NCBI GenBank assembly: GCA_031081585.1
Contig: JAVHLY010000010.1
Span: 1-64,000, forward strand
DNA: 64,000 bases
DNA from: Armatimonadota bacterium
Lineage (GTDB): Bacteria; Sysuimicrobiota; Sysuimicrobiia; Sysuimicrobiales; Humicultoraceae
Reading direction: 5' to 3'
The notes beneath the pieces are model-generated. The model ran no database searches. It was not told where the DNA came from and was given only the letters and a program-made list of their open reading frames with translations. The position numbers were made by a program, and so were the translations under genes. Shown here in pieces: positions 4,438 to 45,719 of the stretch (its first letter is position 1; each line of letters begins with the position of its first letter).

Positions 4438-6528
4438 TTACCCCTCCACACGGATGGGGAGCAGGACCCAGAAGGTCGAGCCCTGCCCGGGTTGCGAGCG
4501 CACCCCGAGGCGCCCGCCGTGCAGCGCGACGATCCGTCGCGCAATGGCCAGCCCCAGCCCGGTCCCCCCGGCCTGCCGGGTGCTCGAGCTGTCTACCTGG
4601 TGGAACTCCTCGAAAATGCGCTCCTGCTCGCCCTCCGGAATCCCCGGACCGGTGTCGCTGACGGACACCTCCAAGGCGTCCCCGACGACGCGCACGGCCA
4701 CGCGCACCTCGCCCGCCGGGGTGAACTTCACGGCGTTGCCCACGAGGTTCAGCAGGACCTGCAGGAGGCGCCGCTCGTCCCCGCGCCCCCGGGGCAGCCC
4801 CTCGGGGACGACCGCCCGCAGCCCCAGCCCTTTCTCCGCGGCCAGGGGCTCCACCGCCGTGACGGCGCTCTGCACCACGTCGGCCAAGGAGTAGTCGGCG
4901 AGGCTCAGGCGCAGCTCGCCGGCCTCGATCTTGGAGAGGTCGAGGACGTCGTTGATCAGGCGGAGGAGGTGGCGGCCGTTCTGCTGGACGCGTGCCAGCA
5001 CCTCCCGCAGCCGCTCGGGCACCGGCCCGTAGATCTCGTCGAGGACGAGCTCCGTGTACCCCAGGATGGCGTTGAGCGGGGTGCGCAGCTCGTGGCTCAT
5101 GTTGGCCAGGAACTGGGACTTGTGGCGGTTGGCCACCTCCAGCTCGCGGTTCTTCTCCTCGAGCTGGCGGTTGGCCTCCTGCAGCGCCCGGGTGCGCTCC
5201 GCCACCTTGCCCTCCAGCTCGCGGGCGTAGCGGCGGGTGTCCTCGAAGAGCCGGGCGTGCTCGATGGCGATGGCGGCCTGATCGGCCAGGACGGTGAGCA
5301 GCTGCCGGTCGACCTCGCCGAACTTGTGCGGCGCCCGGCTGACCACGTAGAGGACGCCCGTCACGCTCCCCTGCACGGTGAGCGGCACGGCGACGTGGGA
5401 GCGCGCGCCGATGCCGCGGACCAGCGGCAGGAAAGGACTGTCCGGCACCTCCGTCGGGTAGTCGCCGACGATTAGCGGGCGCCCCGTCCGTGCCACCCGG
5501 CCGCCCAGGCCCTCCCCGGGCCGGAAGCGCACCGCCGCCAGCGCCTCGCTCCCCTCGCCGGCCACGGCCCGCATGGCGAAGAGGTCCTGGCCGTCCTCGC
5601 GCAGCGCCAGCGCGGCCATGTCGGCGTCGAGCAGGGTGCGGGTCCGGTCGACGATGAGGCGCAGCGTCGGCTGCAGCGCCACCTGGGCGATGATCTCCTG
5701 CCCGATCTCGTAGAGGGCGCGCTGCTCGCCAACCTTGCGCTCGATGGCCGCCTGTTGCTCCCCGAGGGCCGCCGCCATCCGGTTGAACGAGTCCGCGAGC
5801 ACGCCCAGCTCGTCGCGCGTGGTGACGGGGATGGTCACGGCCAGCTGACCGCCGGCCACCAGCCGGGTGCCGCGCACGAGGTCGGCCACGGGACGCACCA
5901 GGCGCGCGCTCGTCCAGGCTGAGAGCGCCATCCCCCCCAGGACGAAGAGCCCGCCGAGCGCCAGGCCGGCGAGGCGGGCCCGGGCGATCTCCCGCTGCAC
6001 CGAGGTGAGGGTGAACCCGATCCGCACACCGCCCAGGCGCTCCCGTTCCGTGTCGAAGAAGGGCTGGGCGGCGTCCAGCACGTTCCCCGGGGCGGTGAAC
6101 CTGGAGTCGCGGTACTGCAGCAGCGCGGTCGGGCTGCGCACGGCCGGACCGTGGAACGGGTCCGCCGGGACCTGTCGAAAGTGCGGGTTCTCGCGCGTGC
6201 CGTCGGCCAGGATCCGGCCCTCGCGGTCGAAGACGTAGGCGTAGACGACCTCGGGGGTGGCCCGCACGTTCTCCAGGTAGGTACGCATCCGGTCGAACCG
6301 GCCCGGATCGTAGAAGGAGCCGGCCACGCTCTCCGCCAGCAGCGAGGCCAGCGAGCGGGCGCGGACCTCGAGTTCCCCCTGCACCTCGTGGGCGTAGAAC
6401 CGCAGCCCCAGGGAGACGAAGAGGACGGTCATGGTCACGACGACGCCGGAGAGGAGGAGGAACAGCCTCGTCCGGAGGCTGATGCGCGGGGTCAACGAAG
6501 ACGCCATGGGGAGGCCCCGCCGGGGCAT
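4438..6528 (-). CDS. membrane sensor histidine kinase with HAMP and GAF domains
   Basis: 696 residues in a full sensor layout. TM1 is at about 20-42, an extracytoplasmic sensor at 45-180 with a motif GRILADG, TM2 at about 187-207, HAMP at 208-262, and GAF at about 280-425. A coiled coil (430-468) leads to HisKA with His479 in MSHELRTP and a HATPase domain with N-box NLVGNAVKF, DTGPGIP and GTGLGLAI. It should autophosphorylate on His479 and pass phosphate to the two downstream receivers. The ATG at 6528 was preferred over ATG 6507, which has no purine-rich site. The stimulus is unknown; the GAF domain may bind a small ligand. Confidence 0.92.
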   Translation of the reverse strand: MPRRGLPMASSLTPRISLRTRLFLLLSGVVVTMTVLFVSLGLRFYAHEVQGELEVRARSLASLLAESVAGSFYDPGRFDRMRTYLENVRATPEVVYAYVFDREGRILADGTRENPHFRQVPADPFHGPAVRSPTALLQYRDSRFTAPGNVLDAAQPFFDTERERLGGVRIGFTLTSVQREIARARLAGLALGGLFVLGGMALSAWTSARLVRPVADLVRGTRLVAGGQLAVTIPVTTRDELGVLADSFNRMAAALGEQQAAIERKVGEQRALYEIGQEIIAQVALQPTLRLIVDRTRTLLDADMAALALREDGQDLFAMRAVAGEGSEALAAVRFRPGEGLGGRVARTGRPLIVGDYPTEVPDSPFLPLVRGIGARSHVAVPLTVQGSVTGVLYVVSRAPHKFGEVDRQLLTVLADQAAIAIEHARLFEDTRRYARELEGKVAERTRALQEANRQLEEKNRELEVANRHKSQFLANMSHELRTPLNAILGYTELVLDEIYGPVPERLREVLARVQQNGRHLLRLINDVLDLSKIEAGELRLSLADYSLADVVQSAVTAVEPLAAEKGLGLRAVVPEGLPRGRGDERRLLQVLLNLVGNAVKFTPAGEVRVAVRVVGDALEVSVSDTGPGIPEGEQERIFEEFHQVDSSSTRQAGGTGLGLAIARRIVALHGGRLGVRSQPGQGSTFWVLLPIRVEG

Positions 6529-39764: not shown

Positions 39765-40937
39765 CTACTCGTCCCCTTCCGCCGCGGCCGGGACCAGGAC
39801 CCCCGCTGCCGACTCCCCCGCGGCAGCGCCGCCGGCCGACGGCGAGAACCAGCGCTGGGCGACCAGCGTGGGGACGACCGCGGTGGCGATCACCGTCGTC
39901 ACCAGGAGGGAGAACTGGGTCCGGTCGAGGATGCCGGCCTGCAGGCCGTACAGTGAGGAGATCGTCCCGAAGGTCAGGCCGGTGCTCATCAACAGGGTGA
40001 GGTAGACGGCGCCGACGGGAGCGGAGCGCCGCGCCGCCGGCAGCACGCCGGCGAACTTCAGCGCCACCTTGACCGCGAAGAGGAGTCCCAGGGTCCTCAG
40101 GCTGGCGGCAACGGCGGTGAGCTGCACGTTCAGTCCGGCCTTGATAAAGAAGAAGGGCGTGAGCATGGCGAAGGCCACCACCCGGAAGCGGCGCTGCGTG
40201 TCCGGGTGCGTGGCGAAGATGCGGGAGAAGGCCAGACCCAGGACGAAGGCCGGCAGGACGGCATGGCTGTCGGACCGCTGCCCCAGGTACATGAGCGCCA
40301 GCAGGGCGGCAAAGGCGCCCTTGATCTCCGCCTCGATGATGCGGCCGCCGTAGCGCCTGAAGATCCAGGGCTGCAGGCGCGGCATGATCAGCACGATGGC
40401 CACCGCCACACCCACGAACCCTGCCATCCAGACCGTCGGCGTGACGAAGAGGACACTGAGGGCGGCGGCGGTGCCGAAGTCGGTGACGAAGGTGCTGGCC
40501 ATGAGGAGCTTGCCCAGCGCCGTGTGGGTGAGACCGGTCTCGACCAGCACGGCGTAGACCACCGCCAGAGAGGTGGTGGAGAGGGCTACGCCGGCAATCC
40601 GGCTGGCCTCGGGCGTCCAGTGCAGCCCCCACTGCGCCACGGCCCAGGCGCCGGCGAATGGCAGGAGGAAGGAGAGGCCGCCGATGAGGAGGCTCGGCCC
40701 GAGCTGCTCGCGCAGGACGTCCGTGTCGACTTCGGCTCCGGCGAGGAAGGTGAGGACGATCCCGCCAAAGCCGGCCAGGTAGTCGACCCACGGGGTAGTG
40801 TGCAGGCCGAGGAGGTTGCCGCCCAGGACCCCCAGCAGGATCTCGACCAGCGCGACGGAGATGCCGAGCTCCACCGAGGCGATGGTGGCCAGGAAGATCA
40901 GCAGCCCCAGGACCGTGGCAGTCCAGGCGTCCGTCAT
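39765..40937 (-). CDS. monovalent cation:proton antiporter (CPA2/KefB-like), under a fluoride riboswitch
   Basis: 390 residues with about a dozen hydrophobic segments. LTFLAGAEVDTDVLR and STTSLAVVYAVLVETG lie in the transport core, and FFFIKAGLNVQ and STGLTFGTISSLYGL mark the KefB/NapA-type CPA2 family. There is no C-terminal TrkA-N domain. Sitting directly behind a fluoride aptamer, it probably takes part in fluoride or linked H+/Na+ (K+) homeostasis; antiporters of this type are among the gene classes reported downstream of such riboswitches. GGGAGAGGGGC precedes the ATG. The ion is inferred. Confidence 0.88.
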   Translation of the reverse strand: MTDAWTATVLGLLIFLATIASVELGISVALVEILLGVLGGNLLGLHTTPWVDYLAGFGGIVLTFLAGAEVDTDVLREQLGPSLLIGGLSFLLPFAGAWAVAQWGLHWTPEASRIAGVALSTTSLAVVYAVLVETGLTHTALGKLLMASTFVTDFGTAAALSVLFVTPTVWMAGFVGVAVAIVLIMPRLQPWIFRRYGGRIIEAEIKGAFAALLALMYLGQRSDSHAVLPAFVLGLAFSRIFATHPDTQRRFRVVAFAMLTPFFFIKAGLNVQLTAVAASLRTLGLLFAVKVALKFAGVLPAARRSAPVGAVYLTLLMSTGLTFGTISSLYGLQAGILDRTQFSLLVTTVIATAVVPTLVAQRWFSPSAGGAAAGESAAGVLVPAAAEGDE

Positions 40938-40959
40938 GCCCCTCTCCCGAAAACGGCAA

Positions 40960-40996
40960 CTGGCGCGACCCCTGCGCCGGGCAGGGTCCGCGCCAG
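40960..40996 (-). repeat. second leader hairpin between riboswitch terminator and antiporter start
   Basis: On the minus strand, CTGGCGCG and a following GC-rich segment pair with a downstream near-complement ending GCGCCAG. This gives a stem of about 16 bp with one mismatch and a 5-base loop. It follows the fluoride terminator directly and ends 13 bases before the purine-rich GGGAGAGGGG (40946-40937 side). It could be a backup pause or terminator (a short TTTT occurs a few bases later) or an mRNA-stabilising element. Confidence 0.45.
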
Positions 40997-40998
40997 CG

Positions 40999-41027
40999 AA
41001 AAAGCCCCTACCCGCGAGGGTAGAGGC
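40999..41027 (-). terminator. intrinsic terminator of the fluoride riboswitch expression platform
   Basis: On the minus strand GCCTCTACCC pairs with GGGTAGGGGC around a TCGC loop (10 bp, one T-G wobble) and is followed by TTTTT at 41003-40999. The left arm reuses the GCCUC bases that form the aptamer pseudoknot. The two structures are therefore mutually exclusive: ligand-bound aptamer should prevent the terminator and turn the operon on. Confidence 0.88.
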
Positions 41028-41067
41028 TATCAGCCGTGAAGGCGGTTATCGGCGAGCCTCATCGCCG
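41018..41067 (-). promoter_or_regulatory. fluoride riboswitch aptamer (crcB motif)
   Basis: Read on the minus strand, this 50-base element matches the fluoride aptamer part by part. P1 is CGGCG/CGCCG (41067-41063 and 41054-41050). The conserved GAUGAGGC lies inside it, followed by a linker with AACC, a small stem-loop, then GGCUGAU and GCCUCUACC. GAGGC can pair with GCCUC as the ligand-stabilised pseudoknot. The similarity to the Thermotoga aptamer used for structure work is near base-for-base in the conserved positions. It lies between a consensus promoter and an overlapping terminator, 5' of the antiporter/MutS-like operon. Confidence 0.93.
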
Positions 41068-41085
41068 CGTGCCGATTTACCATGA

Positions 41086-41114
41086 AGTGTAGAAGGGCAG
41101 GCGGGGGCTGTCAA
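41086..41114 (-). promoter_or_regulatory. sigma-70-type promoter of the fluoride operon
   Basis: Minus strand: a perfect -35 TTGACA (41114-41109), a 17-base spacer and -10 TACACT (41091-41086). Transcription should begin near 41079, about 12 bases before the aptamer, which agrees with a short riboswitch leader. The plus-strand gene at 41230 is divergent; no comparable promoter is seen for it. Confidence 0.75.
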
Positions 41115-41229: not shown

Positions 41230-42294
41230 ATGGCTGAGACGCCGGCGACGCAGTCCACCGAACCGCTGGCCGCGACGCAGGAGGCCCGCCGGCTGGAGCT
41301 TTCCTACGAGCTGGCCATCCTGGCCGCACTGGTCCTGCTCATGGCGCTCATCACCCTGCGGGCGCCCCGTTTCCTGCAGACCGACAACCTCTTCCAGATC
41401 GCCCGCAACTTCTCGTTCATCGCCGCCGTCGGGGTGGGCGAGGCCCTGGTGATCCTCACCGGGCGCGGGGGGATCGACCTCTCTGTGGGCTCGGTGGTCA
41501 GCCTGGGCGGGGTGGTGGCCACCAAGCTCCTCAGCCTGGGCCAGCCCCTGCTGCTGGCCATGGTCGCCGGCACCGCCGCCGGCGTGGGGGTGGGGCTGGC
41601 GAACGGCCTGCTGGTGACGAAGGCCAGGATGACGCCGCTCATCCCCACGCTGGGCATGCTCTCCGTGGCCGGCGGGCTCGCCCTGGTGATCACGCGGGGC
41701 TTCCCCATCACCGAACTGGGACCGCAGGCCGACCTCTTCGTGGCGCTGGGCGCCGGCTTCGTCGGCCCCGTGCCCGCGCCCGTGATCTACATGGCGGTGG
41801 TGGTGCTGGTGGGCTGGATCGTCACCACCCGCACGCCCTTCGGCTACGACCTCTATGCCGTGGGCGGCAACGAGGACGCGGCCCGCGTCGCCGGTATCGA
41901 CGTCGACCGGGTGAAGCTCACCGCCTACGTCGCCAGCGGCGGCCTGGCCGCCCTCACCGGGATCCTGCTGGCGGCCCGCCTCTCCGTGGGCGACGCCACC
42001 CTGGGCCAGGGGATGGAGCTGGGGGTCATCGCCGCCGTGGTCATCGGCGGAGTGAGCCTGCTGGGGGGACGGGGGTCGATCCTGGGGCTGGTCATCGGCG
42101 CGGCGTTGATCGGGGTGCTGCAGAACGGCATGGTGCTGATGGGGGTCCCGGCCTTCTGGCAGCAGGTGGTCATCGGTGCCACCATCATCGTGGCGGTGCT
42201 GCTCGACCGGGTGCGCCTGCGCCTGGTGGCGGCGGCGGCGCAGGCGGCCGCGGCTCCCGCCGGCGCGGCGCCCGGAGCGGTCGAGGGCCGCTGA
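41230..42294 (+). CDS. sugar ABC transporter permease (third system)
   Basis: 354 residues, RbsC-type permease with an N-terminal cytoplasmic extension and an Ala/Pro-rich tail. ALVILTGRGGIDLSVGS, YAVGGNEDAARVAGID and AAVVIGGVSLLGGRGS are the family motifs. It leads an operon whose order (permease, binding protein, single-domain ATPase, kinase) resembles Frc-type systems. The ATG at 41230 has no clear ribosome-binding site. Confidence 0.9.
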   Translation: MAETPATQSTEPLAATQEARRLELSYELAILAALVLLMALITLRAPRFLQTDNLFQIARNFSFIAAVGVGEALVILTGRGGIDLSVGSVVSLGGVVATKLLSLGQPLLLAMVAGTAAGVGVGLANGLLVTKARMTPLIPTLGMLSVAGGLALVITRGFPITELGPQADLFVALGAGFVGPVPAPVIYMAVVVLVGWIVTTRTPFGYDLYAVGGNEDAARVAGIDVDRVKLTAYVASGGLAALTGILLAARLSVGDATLGQGMELGVIAAVVIGGVSLLGGRGSILGLVIGAALIGVLQNGMVLMGVPAFWQQVVIGATIIVAVLLDRVRLRLVAAAAQAAAAPAGAAPGAVEGR

Positions 42295-42371
42295 GCCCAG
42301 ACGCCGGAGGGGAGGTGAGACGACAGCACGACACGGTGTGGCAGGCATGAGTCGCAAAAGGGGGTGGACGT

Positions 42372-43337
42372 ATGCGAACCATCTGGCTGCGCGTCCTGCT
42401 CGTCGGGGTCCTCCTGGGGAGCCTGGCGGGACTCCATCCGGTCGAGGGGGCGGCTCGGCCCGTCTTCGCCGTCGTCCCCAAGGCGATCAACAACCCGTTC
42501 TTCAACCAGGTGCGCGACGGCTGCATGGAGGCAGCCAAGCGCCTGAACGTCACCTGCGAGTTCACGGGGCCGGAGCAGACGGAGATCGCCCCGCAGATCC
42601 GCGTGCTGGAGGCGCTGGTGGCCCGGAAGGTCTCCGGGCTGGCCATCTCGCCGGTGGACGGCAAGAGCGTCGTACCCGTGATCAAGAAGGCGATGGCCGG
42701 CGGGATCCCGGTCATCACCTTCGACTCGGACGCGGCGCCGGAGTCCGGCCGGCTGGCCTTCGTGGGGACGGACAACGAGGCCGCCGGCAAGGAGCTCGGC
42801 CGGCTCTTCCTGCGCTTCGCCCCCAACGGCGCCACCTACGGCATCATCACCGGGGGCCTGGGAGCGGTGAACCTGAACCAGCGCATCAAGGGGTTCAAGA
42901 GCGTCGTCACCGACACCAGCAAGTACCGGGAGGTCAGCGGCTCGCCCTTCCCCAGCAACGACGACATCAACCGGGCCGTGCAGCTGGTGGAGCAGATGAT
43001 CACGGCCAACCCCAACCTCACCGCCATCGTCATGGTGGGCGGGTGGCCGCTCTTCGCCCCTGAGGCGTACAAGAACGCCGTGAAGAAGAAGGAAGCGGAC
43101 ATCAAGGCGGGACGCTTCACCGTCGTCTCCTTCGACACCCTGGAGCCGGAGCTGCGGCTGGTGAAGGAGGGGTTCGTCTCCGGGCTCGTGGGGCAGCGTC
43201 CCTACCAGATGGGCGTGCGGTCCATCGAGCTGCTCAACGACATCGTGGTCAAGAAGATGAAGCCGGCCCAGACCTTCTACAACACCGGCGTGGACATCGT
43301 CACCCGGGAGAACGTCGACCGGTTCCTCCAGAAGTGA
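42372..43337 (+). CDS. sugar ABC transporter periplasmic binding protein (third system)
   Basis: 321 residues with a signal peptide (1-25) and a type I binding fold: FAVVPKAINNPFFNQVRDGC, EFTGPEQTEIAPQIR, ISPVDGKSV, ITFDSDAAPESGR and VGTDNEAAGKELGRL. It is of the RbsB/FrcB kind and serves the 41230 permease. The ATG follows GGGGGTGG. The sugar is unknown; the xylulokinase two genes on hints at a pentose or pentulose-yielding substrate. Confidence 0.9.
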   Translation: MRTIWLRVLLVGVLLGSLAGLHPVEGAARPVFAVVPKAINNPFFNQVRDGCMEAAKRLNVTCEFTGPEQTEIAPQIRVLEALVARKVSGLAISPVDGKSVVPVIKKAMAGGIPVITFDSDAAPESGRLAFVGTDNEAAGKELGRLFLRFAPNGATYGIITGGLGAVNLNQRIKGFKSVVTDTSKYREVSGSPFPSNDDINRAVQLVEQMITANPNLTAIVMVGGWPLFAPEAYKNAVKKKEADIKAGRFTVVSFDTLEPELRLVKEGFVSGLVGQRPYQMGVRSIELLNDIVVKKMKPAQTFYNTGVDIVTRENVDRFLQK

Positions 43338-43359
43338 GGGATGGCGGCGGGGCCCGCCC

Positions 43360-44196
43360 GTGCCGCGTGCACGCCCGGTGCGGGACGGGCCCCCGCCGGT
43401 CGAGGCCGACGACCCGATCGTGACCGCTGCGTTCGCCCCTGCGCCCGCGACGGCGGCGACCGCCCCCGCGCCGCTGGTGGAGATGCGCCGCATCAGCAAG
43501 CGCTTCGGCGCGGTGCAGGCGCTGCGCGACGTGGACCTGACGCTCTTCCCCGGGGAGGTCCTGGGGCTGGTGGGCGACAACGCCGCCGGCAAGTCCACCC
43601 TGATGAAGATCCTCACCGGCGTCTACCAGGCGGACAGCGGCGAGATCCTCTTCGACGGGCGGCCGGTGCGCTTCGACGGTCCCGCCGCGGCGCGGGCGCG
43701 GGGCATCGAGATGGTCTACCAGGACTTCGCGCTCTGCGACAACATGGACGTCGCCCAGAACATCTGGCTGGGCCGCTGGCCGCGGCGCGGACCCTTCGTG
43801 GACCGCGCCACCATGGACCGGCGGGCCGAGGCGGTGCTGCGCCGCCTGCGGGTGGAGGTCTCCTCGGTGCGCGCCGAGGTGGCCACCCTCTCCGGCGGAC
43901 GACGCCAGAGCGTGGCCATCGCCCGCGCCCTCTCCTTCGAGCCGCGGGTGCTCATCCTCGACGAGCCCACGGCCAACCTCTCCCCGGCGGCCACGCGCGA
44001 GGTGCTGGAGGTGGTGCGCGGCCTGCGCGACCAGGGGGTGGGGATCATCTTCATCAGCCACCGCCTGCAGGAGATCTTCCAGATCGGCGACCGCATCACG
44101 GTGCTCAAGCAGGGTCGCCACGTCGGCACCCGCCCGGTGGCGGCAACCACCGAGGATGAGGTCCTGGAGATGATCGTCGCGGGAGTCCGCGCGTGA
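43360..44196 (+). CDS. sugar ABC transporter ATPase, single domain (FrcA-like)
   Basis: 278 residues with one ABC domain, unlike the double-domain ATPases of the other two systems. Walker A is GDNAAGKST (an Ala variant typical of this subfamily), Q-loop VYQDF, signature LSGGRRQSV, Walker B LILDEPTANLSP and H-loop FISHRL. Two copies would work with the permease. The start is uncertain: GTG 43360 gives a Pro/Ala-rich leader, and GTG 43420 is possible. It overlaps the xylulokinase by 4 bases. Confidence 0.88.
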   Translation: MPRARPVRDGPPPVEADDPIVTAAFAPAPATAATAPAPLVEMRRISKRFGAVQALRDVDLTLFPGEVLGLVGDNAAGKSTLMKILTGVYQADSGEILFDGRPVRFDGPAAARARGIEMVYQDFALCDNMDVAQNIWLGRWPRRGPFVDRATMDRRAEAVLRRLRVEVSSVRAEVATLSGGRRQSVAIARALSFEPRVLILDEPTANLSPAATREVLEVVRGLRDQGVGIIFISHRLQEIFQIGDRITVLKQGRHVGTRPVAATTEDEVLEMIVAGVRA

Positions 44197-45719
44197 CCCC
44201 CGCCGGGCCCTGCCTGCTGGGCCTCGACGTCGGGACGACCGGGGCCAAGGCGGTGCTGGTGGACGCCTCGGGAGCGGTGCGGGCCACGGCGACGCGGGAG
44301 TACCCGCTCCTCGTCCCCCGCCCGGGGTGGACGGAGCAGGACCCCGACGCCTGGTGGGAGGCCTCGGCCGAGGCGATCCGCGAGGCGCTCGCCCGGTCCG
44401 CGGTGCCGCCGGCGCAGGTCGCGGCGGTGGGGCTCACCGGCCAGATGCACGGCCTCGTGGCCCTCGACGCCAGCGGCCGCGTCCTGCGCCCGGCGATCCT
44501 CTGGAACGACCAGCGCACCCACGAGGAGTGCGCCTGGATCACCGAGCGTGTCGGTGCCGAGCGCGTCATCGCCCTCACCGGCAACCCCGCGCTCACGGGC
44601 TTCACCGCCCCCAAGCTCCTCTGGCTGCGCCGCCACGAGCCCGACGTCTACGGCCGCATCGCCCACGTCCTGCTGCCGAAGGACTACCTGCGCTTCCGGC
44701 TGTCGGGCGTGCTGGCCACCGACGTGGCCGACGCGTCCGGCACCACCTGGCTGGACGTGCAGCGGCGCACCTGGTCGGAAGAGATGCTCGCCGCCCTGGA
44801 CGTCCCGCGGGCGTGGCTGCCGACCGTACACGAGTCACCCGAGGTGACCGGTCGCCTCACCCGGGCGGCCGCCGAGGCCACCGGGCTCGCCGAGGGGACG
44901 CCGGTGGTGGCCGGAGCGGGCGATCAGGCCGCCCAGGCCGTCGGCACCGGCATCGTACGCGAGGGCCTGGTCGCCGTGACCATCGGGACGTCCGGCGTCG
45001 TCTTCGCCCACCTCGACGCGCCGCGCATCGATCCGCAGGGGCGCGTGCACGCCTTCTGCCACGCCGTCCCCGGCCGCTGGCACGTCATGGGGGTGATGCT
45101 CTCGGCGGGCGGCTCGCTGCGCTGGCTGCGCGACGCGCTGGGCGTGTGGTCGACCCGGGACGCCCCGGACCCCTACGAGCAGATGACGGCGGAGGCGGCC
45201 GCGGTGCCGCCCGGTGCCGAGGGGCTCCTCTTCCTCCCCTACCTGACCGGCGAGCGCACGCCGCACGCCGACCCCTTCGCCCGCGGGGCATTCGTGGGCC
45301 TGACGCTGCGCCACACCCGCGCCCACCTGGTGCGGGCGGTGCTGGAGGGGGTGGCCTTCGGGCTGCGCGACGCCCTGGAGATCATCCGCGGGATGGGCGT
45401 GGCCGTCGCCGAAGTGCGCGCCTCCGGCGGCGGGGCACGCAGCCCGCTGTGGCGGCAGATCCTGGCGGACGTCCTGGGCGTCGAGGTGGTCACCGTGACC
45501 ACCACGGAAGGCGCGGCCTACGGGGCGGCGTTGCTGGCCGGTGTGGGGGCGGGCCTCTTCTCCTCGGTGGAGGCCGCGTGCGAGACGGCCGTCGCCCCCA
45601 CCGGCCGGACGGTCCCGGACGGCGGCCGGGTCGGACGGTACGACGCGCTCTACCGCACCTACGGGGCGCTCTACCCGGCGCTGCGGGCGAGCGCGCGGGC
45701 GCTGCACGCGGTCTCCTGA
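44193..45719 (+). CDS. xylB: xylulokinase
   Basis: 508 residues of the FGGY family. LGLDVGTTGAKAVLVD, GLTGQMHGLVALD, ILWNDQRT, GAGDQAAQAVGTGI and SGGGARSPLWRQILADV are xylulokinase-type motifs. It should phosphorylate D-xylulose, or a related ketose, to feed the pentose-phosphate route. The GTG overlaps the ATPase stop (GTGA). No xylose isomerase of the classical kind is next to it; the TIM-barrel isomerase at 35467 is 9 kb away. Confidence 0.88.
   Translation: MTPAGPCLLGLDVGTTGAKAVLVDASGAVRATATREYPLLVPRPGWTEQDPDAWWEASAEAIREALARSAVPPAQVAAVGLTGQMHGLVALDASGRVLRPAILWNDQRTHEECAWITERVGAERVIALTGNPALTGFTAPKLLWLRRHEPDVYGRIAHVLLPKDYLRFRLSGVLATDVADASGTTWLDVQRRTWSEEMLAALDVPRAWLPTVHESPEVTGRLTRAAAEATGLAEGTPVVAGAGDQAAQAVGTGIVREGLVAVTIGTSGVVFAHLDAPRIDPQGRVHAFCHAVPGRWHVMGVMLSAGGSLRWLRDALGVWSTRDAPDPYEQMTAEAAAVPPGAEGLLFLPYLTGERTPHADPFARGAFVGLTLRHTRAHLVRAVLEGVAFGLRDALEIIRGMGVAVAEVRASGGGARSPLWRQILADVLGVEVVTVTTTEGAAYGAALLAGVGAGLFSSVEAACETAVAPTGRTVPDGGRVGRYDALYRTYGALYPALRASARALHAVS

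Follow-up and report, generated by a model that had tools for sequence, protein, structure and literature searches.

The closest described systems to the locus reported here are the fluoride riboswitches (the crcB motif, Rfam family RF01734) and the genes that stand behind them. In Weinberg et al. 2010 (PMC2864571), terminators overlap the crcB motif, an arrangement in which ligand should raise expression, and one motif-associated gene carries the label ‘DNA repair (mutS)’. Taken together with a further account (PMC11139923), the published gene contexts include mutS, K+/Cl- transport and Na+/H+ antiporters; PMC11139923 ranks the antiporters second by frequency among riboswitch-linked classes and assigns them to pH homeostasis. 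For export of fluoride itself, a 2026 paper (PMC13104614) still names two exporter classes.

Here, we describe a locus that belongs to this group and extends it. In a 64 kb stretch of bacterial DNA (the window), a fluoride riboswitch on the minus strand precedes three closely spaced genes, encoding a cation/proton antiporter and two MutS-like proteins, A and B (table 1). The gaps between the genes are 26 and -4 nt, and the genes flanking the three on both sides point the opposite way. Very probably, the three genes form a dedicated fluoride-induced resistance operon under an ON riboswitch, the fluoride response and the roles of the proteins being read from sequence. An earlier, sequence-only reading of this DNA had taken in the switch and the leader of the antiporter gene, and both hold; the operon itself runs further, through the two MutS-like genes to 36674. 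A divergent sugar ABC-transporter operon (41230-45719, plus strand), with a permease, a binding protein, an ATPase and a xylulokinase-like kinase, begins about 115 bases away from the promoter of the riboswitch. A defence-system reading of the locus was set aside, as none of the three proteins has a significant PADLOC match.

Table 1. Features of the riboswitch-led operon, with their positions in the window, and loci elsewhere that carry two further families discussed in the text.
Feature	Position	Strand	Remarks
Sigma-70-type promoter TTGACA-N17-TACACT	41086..41114	-	-35 at 41114-41109; -10 at 41091-41086
Aptamer RF01734	41014..41075	-	full-length match, 43.3 bits against a gathering threshold of 34
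Pseudoknot strand 1, AGGCU, P1 loop	41055..41059	-	pairs with 41028-41024; covaries across relatives
Pseudoknot strand 2, AGCCU (switching strand)	41024..41028	-	also starts the 5' arm of the terminator
Intrinsic terminator	40999..41028	-	11-bp stem 41028-41003, 4-nt loop, T-tract; shuffle test
Second strong hairpin, between terminator and ribosome site	40959..40997	-	z -3.5 for the window stretch
CPA2-fold cation/proton antiporter, 390 aa	39765..40937	-	PF00999 E 5.6e-33; without RCK domain; TD replaces DD, extra Lys290
MutS-like protein A, 511 aa	38203..39738	-	MutS domain V only; Walker B Asn-Glu
MutS-like protein B, 510 aa	36674..38206	-	MutS domain V only; Walker B Asn-Glu; 4-base overlap with gene A
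Tandem small-protein loci	L056 ~5105-6262; L035 5564-6570; L036, L037, L038, L039, L040, L047, L048, L050, L055, L058, L158
DUF6062 loci	L035, L047, L055, L057, L058, L089, L091, L097, L123, L133

The RNA is the best-defined part of the locus. The sequence-only reading had called a fluoride riboswitch and proposed the Rfam covariance model as the check; that search gives a significant match, with an E-value of 1.2e-10 when 701 bases are searched and of 1.1e-8 for the whole window, and all 64 positions of the model are covered by the aptamer. No other cis-regulatory RNA above threshold occurs within the 64 kb. The score itself is moderate (43 bits, where other RF01734 matches in the phylum reach up to 61), and a covariance model of our own, built from an alignment of 17 other sequences with the window sequence left out, recovers the window riboswitch at 48.9 bits. 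In particular, the pseudoknot is well conserved: all five pairs are kept in 38 of the 42 fluoride riboswitches of the phylum, and many compensating types are found among the 42 (AGGCU/AGCCU, GAGCU/AGCUC, GAGCC/GGCUC, AAGCU/AGCUU and others). A match to TCV_Pr at 41000-41030 (25.1 bits, gathering threshold 40) was dismissed as chance, the region being the terminator hairpin.

The elements around the aptamer complete the switch. The promoter described beforehand is indeed present, with 10 of 12 consensus matches and one occurrence found where shuffled sequences give an expectation of 0.0. Of eight relatives checked, six also have a promoter before the aptamer, with 10-12 of 12 consensus matches and, in one of them, a full TTGACA-N16-TATAAT; the other two (L043 and L048) have no convincing promoter at this place. 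Downstream, the expression platform competes with the pseudoknot: the terminator is built from the same AGCCU strand. On this point the sequence-only reading was right about the overlap and the T-tract and needed correction in detail, since the stem has 11 bp rather than 10. The shared strand is AGCCU at 41028-41024. The terminator alone folds at -20 kcal/mol (z -5.1 against shuffles), the ligand-free fold of 70 nt yields it, and a terminator containing the switching strand is found in 37 of the 42 riboswitches of the phylum. The second hairpin of the leader has no T-tail and is perhaps an element of mRNA stability; a comparable one is found in L044. The antiporter gene then starts at an ATG at 40937 behind a GGAGAGG ribosome site, and its product is, as predicted, a cation antiporter by its Pfam match.

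The leader thus fits the published ON-switch arrangement, with competing helices that make the proposed switching logic legible, and we regard the RNA, on its family match and predicted pairing, as an ordinary fluoride ON riboswitch, a full RF01734 member and a textbook case. Transcription would start about 11 nt ahead of the core of the aptamer. In the absence of fluoride, AGCCU would join the 11-bp terminator, and transcription would stop before the antiporter. Fluoride entering the cell as HF would be bound by the aptamer as a Mg2+-fluoride complex, which would hold the AGGCU:AGCCU pseudoknot; the terminator would then not form, and all three genes would be transcribed, presumably as one transcript. 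At the protein level, the antiporter, from a specialised subfamily of CPA2 whose ion site is changed, would exchange ions as the membrane part of the defence, and the MutS-like pair would most likely be an asymmetric A-B ATPase heterodimer of clamp-like build, working outside mismatch repair.

The same genome holds a second fluoride riboswitch, at L056 5001-5071 (contig C32 6998-7068, plus strand), which scores 31.7 bits, below the gathering threshold. It has a terminator of its own and, in place of the usual AACCGCC, an altered joining block (AUGUGCCC). Behind this and other fluoride riboswitches (table 1) directly stand two tandem small proteins of about 130-170 aa, in many cases with DUF6062 and an MFS transporter after them. 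They show a hint of a ribbon-helix-helix at the N-terminus and a coiled coil at the C-terminus, have no confident Pfam or NCBIfam match and have no relative among 80 loci of other phyla; possibly, they are an undescribed family of the fluoride regulon. DUF6062 (PF19538) is itself recurrent in fluoride-riboswitch operons and islands across phyla. Such islands, in which about 13 kb holds three to six riboswitches, several of them as divergent pairs, are found at L089, L114, L064, L123 and L076.

The antiporter is tied to the riboswitch well beyond this one locus. Its clade was followed in 43 genomes of the phylum (the window's own included) and in 50 genomes of other phyla. Within the phylum, a full-length member (44-100% identity) is present in 13 genomes, and in two others the copy is broken or split (G029 and G041). 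Twelve of the 13 full-length members lie 25-91 nt behind an RF01734 match; the 13th (G011) is part of a riboswitch-led operon, in which the riboswitch is followed by a coiled-coil pair, a DUF6062 gene and then the antiporter. As the broken copies likewise lie behind a riboswitch, the clade stands within a fluoride-riboswitch operon in all 15 clade-bearing genomes of the phylum. In the genomes of other phyla, a riboswitch directly precedes 9 of 14 full-length members. None of six distant CPA2 paralogues (25-31% identity) is on a contig with a riboswitch match.

The clade also differs from these paralogues at the ion site. The antiporter scores 81.5 bits against the NCBIfam CPA2 subfamily TIGR00932, short of the cut-off of 238.3, and a single-sequence search against solved structures returned no matches. 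A profile search did match the Na+/H+ antiporter 4bwz (E 2.6e-16) and KefC (8bxg, E 2.5e-9). Across 26 aligned clade proteins, the first Asp of the DD motif is replaced by Thr, Asn or Cys in every one, whereas all six distant paralogues keep DD. Lys290 is invariant in the same 26, four residues before Lys294, where the paralogues have Ala; Lys294 aligns to the core lysine of NapA and is kept in the clade and in the six paralogues. At position 320, the clade has Gly and the paralogues Arg. Judged from the alignment, the ion site of the clade is rebuilt and is more positive around the DD/Lys pair than that of a Na+ exchanger, and Lys290 would face it.

What the antiporter transports we infer from these changes and from the genomes in which it occurs. 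The balance is even for an ordinary Na+/H+ or K+/H+ exchanger, which would correct cytoplasmic pH or cation balance after HF has entered. This is the reading given for riboswitch-linked antiporters in PMC11139923. The nearest solved relatives, a Na+/H+ antiporter and KefC, favour it too. The loss of the first Asp and the gain of Lys290 throughout the clade, while the paralogues keep DD, make ordinary Na+ binding doubtful. Moreover, the classic direction of such exchangers imports protons, which would worsen acidification by HF. On the other hand, exchangers of the ND type exist, so that loss of the first Asp alone leaves cation transport possible. We consider it unlikely that the antiporter itself exports fluoride (e.g. 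by F-/H+ exchange) as a third class beside Fluc/CrcB and CLC-F, although several observations point that way. Neither CrcB (PF02537) nor CLC (PF00654) has a match anywhere in the window's genome, which is 96.5% complete, and both are missing from 12 of the 15 clade-bearing genomes of the phylum and from 6 of the 12 outside it. The clade appears dedicated to the riboswitch by linkage, and its ion site has lost one Asp and gained one Lys; the change of Arg320 to Gly opposes this gain of charge, yet it too shows a rebuilt site. CLC-F, likewise, is a proton-coupled exchanger. Against fluoride export, absence of the known exporters is not specific inside the phylum, where 24 of the 28 genomes without the antiporter also lack both (Fisher p 0.68); outside it, both are lacking in 6 of 12 clade-bearing versus 6 of 36 clade-free genomes (p 0.049). 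A clean mutual exclusion between the antiporter and CrcB/CLC, which would have spoken for export, was not found; the weak contrast with clade-free genomes allows a replacement of known exporters by the antiporter rather than proving it. We know of no CPA protein that moves anions.

The MutS-like pair is widespread. A scan of GTDB species genomes gave at least 574 relatives of protein A, and the loci studied are the best 80 of these, picked by similarity to the window's A protein, so that the riboswitch fraction given below may be biased upwards. Many bacterial phyla are represented among the 80, as are archaea (Woesearchaeota, Bathyarchaeota, Thaumarchaeota and one other), and identity is 49-61%. 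Gene B directly follows A in 79 of them, and the remaining locus is at a contig end. With our own covariance model, 44 of the 80 loci have a riboswitch 16-400 nt ahead of A, where 2.7 would be expected from the density of matches in the same DNA, and 52 have one when weaker matches at the same place are included; 12 loci have no riboswitch whatsoever at E < 0.01. Frequent neighbours are genes for CrcB, MFS, DUF6062, the antiporter and UspA. In some genomes (L036, L049 and L053) the pair is directly behind a riboswitch without the antiporter, so that more than mere read-through is involved. The pair often stands alone in this way, and this rules it out as a passenger of the antiporter operon.

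Both proteins carry MutS domain V (PF00488, E 4e-16 and 3e-20 for the pair) and neither has Pfam domain I (PF01624), II, III or IV or an Smr domain; PF01624 is present in the genome's MutS1. Their predicted folds (pLDDT 86.6 for A and 81.4 for B) match MutS, MutS-beta and the core of MutS2. The Walker A motif GxNxGGK[ST]T is found in 79 of 79 A proteins. The Walker B motif, Asp-Glu in MutS, is invariantly Asn-Glu in the 41 A and 36 B proteins aligned, with one Asp exception in a larger set of B; the same Asn was introduced deliberately in E. coli MutS D693N (crystal structure 3k0s). The two ATPase sites therefore differ, most A proteins reading VTFxDEL where VTH is kept in B. Elsewhere, the window's genome also encodes a canonical MutS1 (domains I-V, beside MutL) and a MutS2 (domain V and Smr), both with Asp-Glu in Walker B, and the pair is thereby ruled out as the genome's mismatch-repair MutS.

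What the pair does is again a matter of weighing. It is rather unlikely, in our judgement, that its role is DNA repair or DNA protection during fluoride stress, as the label published in PMC2864571 would have it. The homology to domain V and the matches of the predicted folds to MutS-beta, MutS and MutS2 speak for such a role, and a clamp-like heterodimer could bind DNA. Yet A and B lack domains I-IV and Smr, have lost the Walker B Asp in all aligned proteins and are accompanied by separately encoded MutS1, MutL and MutS2; judging by these features, ‘DNA repair’ is probably the wrong label for the riboswitch-linked pair. By analogy with KamC, the pair may instead be an ATP-driven reactivase that frees fluoride-locked enzymes, a tentative and unlikely reading in which enolase or pyrophosphatase, held in Mg-fluoride-phosphate complexes, would be among the possible targets. 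Fluoride toxicity acts largely via such inhibition of enzymes, according to PMC11139923. The NCBIfam matches include KamC, which is a MutS-like reactivase and similar in length, and MutS-like proteins outside DNA repair therefore exist. The match is confined to the shared ATPase domain (68.7 bits against a cut-off of 300), and no gene for a partner enzyme lies within the operon, both of which count against a reactivase. The clamp of our preferred A-B heterodimer could thus act on DNA or on something else (e.g. fluoride-locked enzymes), and the evidence favours neither. We would call decidedly unlikely, as a whole, the furthest-reaching proposal that these sequences allow. Under it, the clade marked by T/N/C-D, Lys290 with Lys294 and Gly320 would use the scaffold of a cation antiporter for proton-coupled anion exchange and would make up a third fluoride-exporter class; the A-B pair would be an ATPase dedicated to fluoride tolerance, spread over bacteria and archaea.

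As a guide, the riboswitch appears to mark two protein families as dedicated fluoride-response genes. The antiporter clade, whose ion site is rebuilt and which occurs in genomes without either exporter class, offers a cheap and direct test for a third, and the missing domains and the Asn in Walker B make the ‘DNA repair’ label of the MutS-like pair testable. The parts of PMC2864571 and PMC11139923 used here are silent on a fixed A-B pair without mismatch-recognition domains and on an altered antiporter ion site. Neither is described in the literature searched, from which subscription papers were largely absent, and priority is therefore not established.

Compared with known systems, the window RNA shares with RF01734 the conserved core, the pseudoknot, the overlapping intrinsic terminator and the position in the 5' leader, and it differs in its short P3 loop and otherwise in nothing of note. 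The antiporter has the CPA fold (by profile match), the second Asp and the core Lys in common with NapA-type 4bwz and with KefC (8bxg); unlike them, it has Thr/Asn/Cys for the first Asp, the added Lys290 and no RCK domain. Fluc/CrcB and CLC-F are families unrelated to the antiporter, and neither is encoded in the window's genome, but the antiporter, like them, stands behind fluoride riboswitches. The A-B pair resembles MutS1, MSH2/MSH3, MutS2 and KamC in ATPase domain V and, as predicted models, in overall fold; it differs from them by the absence of recognised domains I-IV and of Smr and by its Asn-Glu Walker B, and the A subunit has lost a His which the B subunit keeps. Altogether, this RNA is followed in the published crcB contexts by genes of the kinds seen in the operon described here.
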